A DNA stretch of 64,000 nucleotides, from assembly GCA_030123565.1 (NCBI GenBank), contig CP126122.1:4478800-4542799 (forward strand), in the 5' to 3' direction. The position numbers and the translations under genes are program-made. The notes under the pieces were generated by a model, which searched no databases, had not been told where the DNA came from, and was given only the letters and a program-made list of their open reading frames with translations. Of the stretch, positions 44,381 through 49,957 are shown one piece after another; positions within the stretch are counted from its first letter, which is position 1, and every line of letters begins with the position of its first letter. The stretch comes from Nitrospira sp. (GTDB lineage: Bacteria; Nitrospirota; Nitrospiria; Nitrospirales; Nitrospiraceae).

Positions 44381-44890
44381 TTAGGAGGCGCCTGGGTCAA
44401 AGATATCGTTGGCCCAATAGTCACAGCCTCCTGCTCCGCAGAGTGGTCCCCCTTCATAGGGTGTGTTCACCGAGTAGTCCGGAACGCTGATGGGACGTTC
44501 ACTGTTGGTTCCCAACTCGGTGGGTGCACTCAACGCCGTCGAGTCATTCGATTCGTTCGGCCTGACGCTCACGACGAAGTTGTAGATCTCGTCCGCCGCC
44601 ACGTCATTGATGCCGTGTTTTCGATCCAGCAACATCTTAAGGAGGCGGTCGGTTTCCGTCTTGGCGATATGCTGATCTCCGCGCTCCAGGCCTGCCTTGA
44701 TTCTGTCGAGTTTCTGGAAGTAGGGGGCAAAGTCTGAACCCGGATAGCTGGCCTTTTCGAAGGTGACCATGTTCCAGACTTCGTCGATCCAGGAGTCGGC
44801 GGCCAGGGCCGTTCCGCCGCAGAGTAAGACCACTGCGCAACTCGCTGCCAGCACCAGCCGCATGGTGAGTGGTATGGGTTTCCCGTTCAT
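44381..44890 (-). CDS. Secreted protein of unknown function, 169 residues
   Basis: A signal peptide (LVLAASCAVVLLCGGTALA, cleavage before ADSW) precedes a helical charged domain (DEVWNMVTFEKASYPGSDFA, then FQKLDRIKAGLERGDQHIAK). A linker with several Ser/Thr follows, and the end is GGPLCGAGGCDYWANDIFDP with a Cys pair that may form a disulfide. I do not recognise a family. Export to the periplasm is well supported. The gene stands alone, transcribed away from the dioxygenase gene, and ends at a strong hairpin. Confidence 0.7.
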   Translation of the reverse strand: MNGKPIPLTMRLVLAASCAVVLLCGGTALAADSWIDEVWNMVTFEKASYPGSDFAPYFQKLDRIKAGLERGDQHIAKTETDRLLKMLLDRKHGINDVAADEIYNFVVSVRPNESNDSTALSAPTELGTNSERPISVPDYSVNTPYEGGPLCGAGGCDYWANDIFDPGAS

Positions 44891-45291
44891 AGTTCTACTC
44901 CTTTCGGAGCTTGTCGTTCGACCGGAACTCTTCCTGCCGGATCATTCGCTGTCTCTTTCTCGACCGGTAGGAAGCGAAACGTTCGCTTCTGTGTTGCAAA
45001 TAGGCTCGGAGGGGATCTGGCTTGGAAACGGTCTGGGTGAACCATGGTGGGTGCTCTCTGAACGGGTGGCTGGGACGAACTGATTGTACTGGGGAGGAAG
45101 AGGTGCGCACCATTCCCGCTGAGAGTGATTTTCCCTACACCGTTTGGGCGATGATGAATGGACGGATTCTTTGGGGTGACTGTGCGGATTCGCGCGAGTC
45201 AGATCTGCCGATGTGTTCGGCAGTGAGTAGGATCACTGTGGTACAGTAAAAAATATCTGTATGGCCATGAAGTCGATGAATCGGAGGTGCC
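44891..45291. other. Divergent intergenic region with a small inverted repeat
   Basis: This separates two divergent genes. CAGTGA (45221-45226) and TCACTG (45233-45238) form a spaced palindrome about 54 bases before the dioxygenase start, a possible operator. A 75-residue open frame at 45022-45249 lacks any signature and I do not count it. Confidence 0.45.
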
Positions 45292-46497
45292 ATGACGACG
45301 TCCGGTCACCAGCCCCTTTCTCTTGCCCTGTTCGACATGTCGGCCGAACGCGGATTCCTCCCGACGACGGATCCGCTGGAGCAGCTTCCCGATGAGCCGG
45401 TTCTGAACCAGCTCGGTGCGGAGCTTCCGAAGTTCCTCACCGCACGACAGGTCAGACACTTCGTTCAAGACCGCCAGGAGGTCATGGGGGCGGTGGCCGA
45501 CGACTGGGGACTCGATGCCTACCGTTGCGCGATGCGCACCCTGTCCTTTGCCGGTCATGCCTATGTCTGGGAAGACCCAGACCATCCCGCTTCCCGCCTG
45601 CCGGCTGGTCTGGCGCTGCCCTGGTACGGTGTCGCGCAGCAGCTCGGCCGCCCGCCGGTCCTTTCCTATGCGTCCTATGCGCTGCAGAACTGGCGTCGCC
45701 TCGACCCGCAGAAGCCCATCGAACTGGGCAACATCGTGCTCCTGCAGAATTTTCTCGGCGGCCTGGACGAAGAATGGTTCGTCCTCGTCCATATTGAAAT
45801 CGAAGCGGAGGCAGGGCCGGGGTTGCAGGGGTTGGTGCAGGCGCAGAATGCCGCGCAGGAGCAGAGGGAGGAAGAGGTGCTGCAGGGACTCCGCACCCTG
45901 GCTGCGGCGCAGGAGGCGATGCGCGAAACCCTCCTCAGGATGCCGGAGCGCTGTGATCCCTATATCTATTACAGCCGGGTACGGCCCTACATTCACGGCT
46001 GGAAGAACAGCCCGGCCCTGCCGGAAGGGTTACTCTACGAAGGTGTGGCGGCCTATGGGGACCGGCCGCAACAGTTTCGAGGCGAAACCGGGTCACAAAG
46101 TTCGATCGTGCCCACCCTCGACGCAGGCCTCGGTGTGTGCCATGCGGATGATCCGTTGACTCAATATTTGACAGAGATGCGCGACTACATGCCGCCGCGC
46201 CACCGCGCGTTTGTCGCAGCGCTGGAACAACGAATGGATGCGCAACGGCGTCCCCTGCTGTACGGCTATGTTCGCGATCGCAAAACGGCGCACCCTGAAC
46301 TGTGGAAGGCCTTCTGTGTCTGCGTGGATCTGCTCGCGCAATTCCGTGAAATTCACATCGGCTACGCCGAACGGTATATCTTTCGACAACATCAATCGCA
46401 TGCGAGCAATCCGACCGCCGTAGGCACGGGCGGGACGCCCTTCATGCCCTACCTGAACAAGCACCTCGAAGAGACGAAGCGCTTCATTCAGGACTGA
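45292..46497 (+). CDS. Indoleamine 2,3-dioxygenase family heme enzyme
   Basis: A 401-residue protein that follows the IDO pattern end to end: PPVLSYASYALQNWRRL, LGGLDEEWFVLVHIEIEAEA, RVRPYIHGWKNSPALPEGLL then YEG, TGSQSSIVPTLDAGLGVCHA, MRDYMPPRHRAFVAALE and the GTGGTPFMPYLNKHLEET loop. H355 in FREIHIGYAERYIF aligns with the proximal heme ligand (human H346), and the Arg in VRPYI aligns with the substrate-carboxylate Arg (human R231). IDO opens the indole ring of tryptophan to N-formylkynurenine. No kynurenine-pathway gene lies nearby, so the substrate is uncertain; bacterial members often have low tryptophan affinity. GGAGGT precedes the ATG. Cytoplasmic, no signal peptide. Confidence 0.85.
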   Translation: MTTSGHQPLSLALFDMSAERGFLPTTDPLEQLPDEPVLNQLGAELPKFLTARQVRHFVQDRQEVMGAVADDWGLDAYRCAMRTLSFAGHAYVWEDPDHPASRLPAGLALPWYGVAQQLGRPPVLSYASYALQNWRRLDPQKPIELGNIVLLQNFLGGLDEEWFVLVHIEIEAEAGPGLQGLVQAQNAAQEQREEEVLQGLRTLAAAQEAMRETLLRMPERCDPYIYYSRVRPYIHGWKNSPALPEGLLYEGVAAYGDRPQQFRGETGSQSSIVPTLDAGLGVCHADDPLTQYLTEMRDYMPPRHRAFVAALEQRMDAQRRPLLYGYVRDRKTAHPELWKAFCVCVDLLAQFREIHIGYAERYIFRQHQSHASNPTAVGTGGTPFMPYLNKHLEETKRFIQD

Positions 46498-46930: not shown

Positions 46931-47063
46931 ACATGTGACCGCCCGGCCGCGTGACCCCGAAAACGCATTCGACATCCCCCATCCATACGCGGAGAAATTA
47001 TCCAACCCACTGCCGCCGTCGCCTGATATGATGAAGGTAGGCCTCGCCCATGGAGCAAGCACC

Positions 47064-47705
47064 ATGGCGTATCGCAGGTCTGTGTTCATCCCGTTGATCG
47101 CGGGGTTGCTGTCCTGGTCGCTCCTCATCCTTTCTCCTTCACCGGCCCGAGCTGAATGGTACGTGGCCGGCCAGTTGGGATGGAATTTCGCCGACCCCCT
47201 TCGAAACGTGCGGGGGACCGGCACACTCGCCGGCTTGGATGCGCCCAACTTCAATTTGAAAACCAGCCCGGCCTTCGGCGGCAAGGTGGGAGTCTATCCC
47301 GGCCACGGGCTGTTGGGGTTGGAACTGGATGTGACGCATAGTAACCCGCACATCAAGAACCTCGACGATGTGCCGGGCATCCATCTCACGGTCACGAACA
47401 TCGGGGCCAATGTGCTGTTACGCTACCCGGGCGTGACCTGGCAACCCTACCTTGGCGGCGGCCCGGCATTGCTCGTGGCCCATCTGGGCCGATCCGCCAC
47501 CACGGAGAGCGATACGCAACTGTCGTTCGGGGGAAATGTGGTGGCGGGCATTCGCGCCTTCGTGACGCCGAAGACGGCGTTGTTCACCGAATACAAATAC
47601 ACCGACTCCACGTTTCGCTTCGGCGGCGCGTTCGGGCCGGTGGGGGGATTCGACGCCACCTATCGCGCCCATCAATTATTCTTCGGGGTGTCCTATCATT
47701 TCTAG
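47064..47705 (+). CDS. Outer-membrane beta-barrel protein (OmpA/OmpW-like)
   Basis: A signal peptide (IPLIAGLLSWSLLILS, cleavage after SPARA) leads into EWYVAGQLGWNFADPL. The mature part of about 185 residues alternates hydrophobic and polar residues in roughly eight strands and ends VSYHF with a terminal Phe, the classical outer-membrane insertion signal. Blocks WQPYLGGGPALLVAHLG and TALFTEYKYTDSTFRFGG resemble OmpA-like porin-family barrels. The ATG at 47064 has GGAG upstream; the frame is open further up. Ligand unknown. Confidence 0.8.
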   Translation: MAYRRSVFIPLIAGLLSWSLLILSPSPARAEWYVAGQLGWNFADPLRNVRGTGTLAGLDAPNFNLKTSPAFGGKVGVYPGHGLLGLELDVTHSNPHIKNLDDVPGIHLTVTNIGANVLLRYPGVTWQPYLGGGPALLVAHLGRSATTESDTQLSFGGNVVAGIRAFVTPKTALFTEYKYTDSTFRFGGAFGPVGGFDATYRAHQLFFGVSYHF

Positions 47706-48643: not shown

Positions 48644-49016
48644 GGTCATTCTGGTCGGGAATCTGACCCGCAATCCCGAATTGCGCTATACGCCGAGCGG
48701 GACACCGGTGGCCAGCTTCGGTTTGGCGACGAGCCGGCGGTTCAAGCAGGCGGATGAACTCAAGGAAGAAGTCTGCTTCATCGACATCGTCGTGTTCGGC
48801 AAGCAAGCGGAACATTGCGGACAGTACCTGAGCAAGGGCAACGGGGTGATCGTCGATGGCCGGCTCCAGCAGCGTCGTTGGGAGACGGAAGACGGTCAGA
48901 AACGCAGCAAGCACGAAGTCGTGGCGCAGGGTGTCACCTTTCTGCCGAAACGGGGTGAGGCCGGCGGCGACGGCGGTACACATGAAGAACCCTCATACGA
49001 AGACGAACAGTTCTAG
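48627..49016 (+). CDS. ssb: Single-stranded DNA-binding protein
   Basis: A 129-residue OB-fold protein: MAGFNKVILVGNLTRNPELR then YTPSGTPVASFGLATSRR, and CFIDIVVFGKQAEHCGQYLS. The acidic C-terminal tip SYEDEQF corresponds to the protein-interaction tail of SSB. The start is a TTG at 48627, which has AAGGAG 6 bases upstream, inside the end of rpsF (17-base overlap). rpsF-ssb-rpsR is a conserved operon. Confidence 0.94.
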   Translation: MAGFNKVILVGNLTRNPELRYTPSGTPVASFGLATSRRFKQADELKEEVCFIDIVVFGKQAEHCGQYLSKGNGVIVDGRLQQRRWETEDGQKRSKHEVVAQGVTFLPKRGEAGGDGGTHEEPSYEDEQF

Positions 49017-49031
49017 CAGACGGAGGCGAGT

Positions 49032-49292
49032 ATGGAACGGACAGAACGGGGCGCCGGTGGCGGCGGAGGAGGCGGTCGGTTTTTCCAGCGCCGCAAACCC
49101 TGCCGATTTTGCGTGGACAAGGCACCGATCGACTTCAAGGATATCGGTCTGTTGCGGAACTTTCTGACGGAGCGCGGGCGGATCGTGCCGCGCCGCATTT
49201 CCGGAAACTGCCTGCAGCACCAGCGGGTGCTGACGGTGGCGGTCAAACGGGCGCGCCATATCGCGCTGGTCAGTTTCGCCGAAGAACGATAG
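49032..49292 (+). CDS. rpsR: 30S ribosomal protein S18
   Basis: An 86-residue S18 with [40 protein letters not shown] then [11 protein letters not shown]. Several Cys residues (CRFC and a later NC) suggest the zinc-binding, C+ form. A run of seven glycines follows the first eight residues, unusual for S18. The usual fourth gene, rplI (L9), is absent after it; the operon runs into yceD instead. Confidence 0.95.
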
Positions 49293-49316
49293 GGCGAGGA
49301 GTAGGAATGCGGTGGG

Positions 49317-49916
49317 ATGCCCATGGATACGCTCAGTCCCGCGATCATCGACATCACACCGGAGGGTCTTTCGGTCTCCTGCAGGGTGACGGGGCCGCAG
49401 CTCGGTCTGCAGGAGCCGGAGGAAAAGTTTCAAGGACCGCTGACGATCGGTCTGGAGCTGACCCAGCTGGAGGGGACGATTACGGCGACCGGAACCTTGG
49501 AGGGGACAGCGCTGCGGCAATGTGTGCGTTGTCTCACGGAGTATCCTGATCCGCTCTTCGTGTCTGTCTATGCGGAATTCGTCCGGCAACCGGGGCAGGC
49601 AACCAAGCCGACCGGGGCGGAGCAGGGCCGGAGAAGTCCGAAGCGTGCGGGTCAACCGGTCGAGCCTGTCGAAGAGACGGAAGAGGAAGACGAACTGTAT
49701 CTGTACCAGGGCGATCATCTCGATCTGGCGTCGATGTTGCGCGAGCAGGTGATCCTGGCAGCCCCGATGCAGCCGCTGTGTCGCGAGGATTGTCGTGGGC
49801 TCTGTCCTCAATGCGGGCAAAATCTCAATGAGCGGCGTTGCGCCTGTCCTCCAGAGCAGAGGCCGAGTCCGTTTCGTGTGGTACAGGGGCGCCGGTCGAA
49901 TGGTGGAAAGGCATAG
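49317..49916 (+). CDS. yceD: DUF177/YceD family protein
   Basis: A 199-residue protein of the YceD (DUF177) family, linked with 23S rRNA or ribosome assembly and nearly always next to rpmF. It shows a beta-rich N-domain, LRQCVRCLTEYPDPL with a Cys pair, an acidic linker (EETEEEDELYLY) and PLCREDCRGLCPQCGQNLNE, a probable zinc site of four Cys. The insert between about residues 95 and 125 (Gln/Arg/Pro-rich) is longer than I expect. It precedes rpmF as usual. Confidence 0.88.
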   Translation: MPMDTLSPAIIDITPEGLSVSCRVTGPQLGLQEPEEKFQGPLTIGLELTQLEGTITATGTLEGTALRQCVRCLTEYPDPLFVSVYAEFVRQPGQATKPTGAEQGRRSPKRAGQPVEPVEETEEEDELYLYQGDHLDLASMLREQVILAAPMQPLCREDCRGLCPQCGQNLNERRCACPPEQRPSPFRVVQGRRSNGGKA

Positions 49917-49957
49917 TCTCATAACCGGGTCACGGGCCCGTTGGTGAAGGAGTCGTC

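Follow-up and report, generated by a model that had tools for sequence, protein, structure and literature searches.

Indoleamine 2,3-dioxygenases (IDOs) fall into three branches in the account given in PMC4217691 (citing Yuasa 2011), in which only one branch is described as degrading tryptophan effectively, and the enzymes of Erythrobacter litoralis and Neptuniibacter caesariensis are described as very slow. Because very slow kinetics have been reported for some of them, the role of the bacterial IDOs outside the tryptophan-degrading branch is an open question. Bacterial IDO and tryptophan 2,3-dioxygenase (TDO) have been described as mutually exclusive (PMC4191572). Human IDO also carries out monooxygenation (PMC12921851), which makes alternative outcomes chemically plausible. 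MarE, PrnB and other heme-dependent aromatic oxygenases (PMC12921851, PMC11904535 and PMC11791213) are likewise His-ligated, act on indole amino acids and give outcomes besides N-formylkynurenine; they serve biosynthetic pathways, whereas no such gene cluster was seen around the Nitrospira IDO described here. A literature search pairing Nitrospira with IDO or kynurenine returned, at the level of titles, nothing on a Nitrospira IDO gene.

IDO-fold protein in Nitrospira

The window, a DNA stretch of 64,000 nucleotides, belongs to a complete genome of 4.62 Mb whose closest named relatives are Nitrospira genomes, within the genus of Ca. N. defluvii; the host had been taken for a probable chemolithotroph, and this was borne out. 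The open reading frame runs from ATG to stop over 401 codons with a GGAGG motif just 5′ of it, and its coordinates, strand and frame proved exact (Table 1). Its product (P0001) matched the IDO family PF01231 with 285 bits against a cut-off of 26 (E=1.1e-84), covering profile positions 2-411 of 412. IDO was the only Pfam family matched, and no output domain was found in the same scan. All sequence relatives of P0001 in the PDB were IDO2 and IDO1. An AlphaFold model built from 28 aligned sequences (mean pLDDT 87.6, low at residues 372-381) aligned with IDO2 at a Z of 49.7 (rmsd 1.9 over 382 residues) and with IDO1 at a Z of 47.3 (rmsd 1.6 over 364 residues). P0001 is therefore a full-length IDO-fold protein, which agrees with mammalian IDO1 and IDO2 in fold from end to end (Z 46-50) and in the proximal His, Arg231 and the GTGGT loop, at 27-35% identity in the structural alignment.

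Table 1. Features of the IDO gene, in positions of the window
Feature	Position	Strand	Basis
IDO-family heme protein P0001 (putative heme binding), 401 aa	45292..46497	+	PF01231, AlphaFold model, dN/dS
Ribosome-binding site GGAGG	45284..45288	+	direct reading, 5′ of the IDO ATG
His167 codon, distal pocket, equivalent to human IDO1 Ser167	45790..45792	+	alignment
Arg231 codon, carboxylate-binding Arg	45982..45984	+	alignment
RGETG loop, residues 263-267, equivalent to human 260-264 AGGSA	46078..46092	+	alignment
His355 codon, proximal heme ligand	46354..46356	+	alignment
GTGGT loop, residues 378-382	46423..46437	+	alignment

The claim that all IDO landmarks are present needs qualifying with regard to the distal pocket. 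Tyr126, Phe163, Arg231, the proximal His355 and the GTGGT loop of P0001 are the same as in mammalian IDO by alignment; Arg231 was invariant in 88 of 88 aligned sequences, and His355, Arg231 and GTGGT were invariant across Nitrospirota. The distal pocket, in contrast, is not of the mammalian type (Ser/Thr167, Phe226 and a GGS loop): Ser167 of human IDO1 (Thr in IDO2) is His167 in P0001, Phe226 is Tyr226, Ser235 is His235, and the AGGSA or SGGSA loop of the mammalian enzymes is RGETG. These changes are invariant or almost so among 63 Nitrospirota sequences, and His167 is fully invariant. The mammalian-type pocket is not strictly required, as haloarchaeal IDOs linked to kynureninase genes (kynU) carry His167 too, and His167 was accordingly ruled out as a sign of new function. 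In TDO, which belongs to a different Pfam family (PF03301), the places matching His167, Tyr227 and Arg231 would be taken by a distal His and by a Tyr-x3-Arg clamp for the carboxylate. The S167H mutant of human IDO1 has been crystallised (PDB 6CXU), which makes the Nitrospira enzyme a natural carrier of the same change.

Distribution, selection and gene neighbourhood

The IDO gene occurs once in its own genome and is single-copy in nearly all genomes of the genus, being present in 28 of 29 and in all 24 of good quality; the sole genome lacking it is an 88% complete draft of about 1030 contigs. Of 295 genomes sampled from the phylum, 66 gave an IDO match. Most of these fall in three large genera belonging to the family, and most members of these genera carry the gene; two come from another family, while several other genera of the family had none. 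The Nitrospirota IDOs form one clade in the tree (support 100/100), pointing to vertical inheritance within the phylum and not recent acquisition, and the dN/dS values against relatives of the genus were 0.04-0.10 by two methods; the gene is under strong purifying selection. Core presence, the single clade and the low dN/dS together rule out a passenger gene or a recent transfer. In another Nitrospira genus, the copies of G070, G096, G285 and G140 are fragmented or partial, suggesting repeated loss.

The IDO gene appears to be monocistronic, as it is separated by about 400 bp from an upstream ORF of opposite orientation and by 437 bp from the outer-membrane protein gene that follows, and no recognised regulator adjoins it. 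The divergent ORF (44381-44890, minus strand) encodes 169 aa with a signal-peptide-like start, is conserved (78-82%) solely among three near relatives and had no NCBIfam match. The downstream gene (46935-47705, plus strand) encodes an outer-membrane beta-barrel protein (PF13505) with homologues at 11 loci of the genus. Farther on, the SSB gene and the 49317-49916 gene are faced on the minus strand by a long ORF (48993-49922), which has the look of an antisense shadow ORF and not of a gene. No conserved operon partner of IDO was found, the neighbours varying by genus (metK-ahcY, pth, MeaB, and an E2 acyltransferase in Bacteroidia). In three Bacteroidia loci (L121, L122 and L123), an E2 gene of the 2-oxoacid dehydrogenase type, recognised as such in L121 and assigned in the other two by membership of the same cluster, lies 2-6 bp 3′ of IDO, which suggests an operon.

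Kynurenine pathway genes in Nitrospira

The observation that neither kynureninase nor formamidase is adjacent was correct for the scanned neighbours, and for kynureninase it extends to the whole genome: the TIGR01814 profile had no match in the IDO-bearing genome (G000), although the same search was positive in control genomes, and none of the 78 family genomes had a kynureninase over the cut-off. TDO (PF03301) was likewise without a match anywhere in this genome and in most Nitrospira tested. The genome setting thus differs from that of mammalian IDO1 and IDO2, and the proposed lack of pathway partners is confirmed genome-wide for kynureninase and TDO. A nadB gene was found over the cut-off (541 bits), so that NAD can be made from aspartate; together with the absence of kynureninase, this rules out a kynurenine route to NAD.

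The remaining part of the genome check put forward in the original prediction, that for formamidase, yielded one PF04199 cyclase, unlinked to IDO (G000:C1:1286567). Other Nitrospira genera have, in many of their genomes, a PF04199 cyclase gene close to IDO. One such IDO-adjacent homologue from another genus scored 115 bits against isatin hydrolase and 58 bits against kynurenine formamidase, and its 80 bits fell below the arylformamidase cut-off of 223. PF04199 is also missing from several IDO-bearing genomes and present in several IDO-free ones, among them IDO-free genera. On these grounds, and because the cyclase is far from IDO in the genus itself, a formamidase linkage was rejected.

Loop type and pathway genes across genomes

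The IDOs examined from bacteria and archaea mostly have either an RG[GA]SG or an RGETG-type loop. The former, found in haloarchaea and some Chloroflexota, belong to the same family as P0001 and also have the distal His167, but they carry Gly/Ala-Ser where P0001 has Glu-Thr, and their position 235 is not His. They differ further in being beside or together with kynureninase: three haloarchaeal ones, on plasmids, are beside or next but one to the kynureninase gene, and four Chloroflexota genomes with RG[GA]SG IDOs have kynureninase and no TDO, a combination seen in two Ardenticatenia genomes and in G386 and G395, all with RGGSG. The outcome for Chloroflexota was predicted before G386, G395 and the RGETG genomes of that phylum named below were checked, and it was borne out. 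G594, whose divergent RGGSG sequence accompanies a kynureninase match only below the cut-off, was excluded from the scoring of 30 genomes.

Genomes with RGETG IDOs mostly lack kynureninase, as do the Chloroflexota genomes G563, G507, G595, G587 and G625 (none over the cut-off). Where kynureninase is present in the scored set, TDO is nearly always present as well (7 of 8 genomes). Both genes accompany an RGETG IDO in the Chloroflexota G501, G421 and G687, three Bacteroidia, Nitrospirales NPIRA02 and the family member G262 (genus g11). In the last two (G335:C3:55378-57304, L106, for NPIRA02; G262:C1:347857-349856), TDO directly adjoins a kynureninase-like gene that is below the cut-off and was scored as present because of this adjacency, and IDO is unlinked to the pair; TDO lies near kynU in several of the genomes in which TDO and IDO coexist. 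Such genomes are exceptions to the reported mutual exclusivity and fit the idea that RGETG IDOs have another role. The one genome breaking the pattern is a Fimbriimonadia MAG (G342), with an RGETG loop, kynureninase, one IDO and no TDO. Loop type was associated with pathway genes by Fisher's exact test (p = 0.0002), a value that comes from 30 related genomes. Since the loop difference sits on few branches of the tree and the independent-pairs test gave a single pair, the link is a clade-level correlation, and proof that the motif sets function was not reached.

The RGETG clade also occurs in Fimbriimonadales, Bacteroidia and Melainabacteria, lineages not known for nitrification. A Sphingomonadales relative, from Sphingobium, is 45% identical to P0001 and groups with the RGETG clade (90/92, not starred). 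The Nitrospira protein may share a branch with the slow enzymes of E. litoralis and N. caesariensis, judging by the Sphingobium relative. On two plasmids of the methanotroph Methylocystis (L144 and L148), RGETG IDOs with Arg at position 235 form a long branch outside the main RGETG clade, and no kynureninase was found on these plasmids.

Proposed function and alternatives

We propose, with a probability of roughly 0.5, that P0001 is a heme oxygenase which acts on an indole-type substrate and stands apart from the kynurenine/NAD route. As a member of the bacterial RGETG clade with the IDO fold, it would be a His-ligated heme oxygenase whose ferrous heme on His355 would bind O2. Arg231, Tyr227 and conserved threonines would hold the substrate, either an amino acid of the indole type or a compound close to tryptophan; His167 would sit next to its indole NH, as in TDO, and one or two oxygen atoms may be inserted into the indole ring. 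The product would stay out of the kynurenine/NAD route, because most Nitrospira lack this route and the relatives possessing it use a separate TDO. With no kynureninase and with NAD made in another way, P0001 therefore probably does an unrecognised oxygen-using job. The suggested role outside tryptophan catabolism is supported, short of proof, by the comparison across genomes, and the best match among the options originally raised is the oxidation of a different indole, since none of the residues expected to hold an indole amino acid (Arg231, Tyr227, His167 and the GTGGT Thr) has been lost. It is more tentative that the RGETG clade as a whole may be a separate enzyme, one that uses an indole substrate of its own or works as a monooxygenase; its O2-dependent reaction would then be core to nitrifying Nitrospira, previously unremarked and without relation to tryptophan catabolism.

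A rather unlikely alternative, though the strongest of them, is that P0001 is an ordinary tryptophan dioxygenase, making N-formylkynurenine that an unlinked hydrolase deformylates, with kynurenine exported, transaminated or used as a signal. The carboxylate-binding residues are all kept, and His167, Tyr227 and Arg231, through which the distal pocket resembles that of TDO, would suit L-tryptophan itself, which counts against our reading, as does the Fimbriimonadia MAG that has kynureninase and an RGETG IDO but no TDO; the PF04199 cyclases near IDO in other genera, and the one in this genome, could be read as the missing hydrolase. Yet this genome has no kynureninase, the IDO-adjacent cyclase of another genus resembles isatin hydrolase more than kynurenine formamidase and scores below the arylformamidase cut-off, the presence of PF04199 is out of step with that of IDO across genomes, and relatives having the pathway retain TDO as a separate enzyme for it.

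That the protein has lost catalysis and binds or senses O2 or NO, or handles NO or nitrite, seems improbable. The abalone IDO-like myoglobins are a precedent within the IDO fold (PMC4191572), Nitrospira lives on nitrite, and metabolic partners linked to the gene are lacking; however, the substrate-pocket residues are invariant in 63 sequences, more than gas binding should need, and the clade extends to lineages not known for nitrification. The heme-based gas sensing raised in the original prediction found no positive evidence, there being neither an output domain nor a recognised regulator next door. A few genomes from another genus with fragmented or partial copies could hint at a relic or neutral passenger, but the dN/dS of 0.04-0.10 and the presence in 28 of 29 genomes already contradict this, and we consider it hardly credible.

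Branches of IDO with very low activity on tryptophan have already been published, so the Nitrospira IDO is a widespread addition to a known, functionally open group. Because it is a core, single-copy gene there without kynureninase and TDO, the question of what such enzymes do becomes directly testable in Nitrospira. The distinction between IDOs that replace TDO and those that coexist with it is also a warning to annotators that a bacterial 'IDO' need not mean kynurenine.
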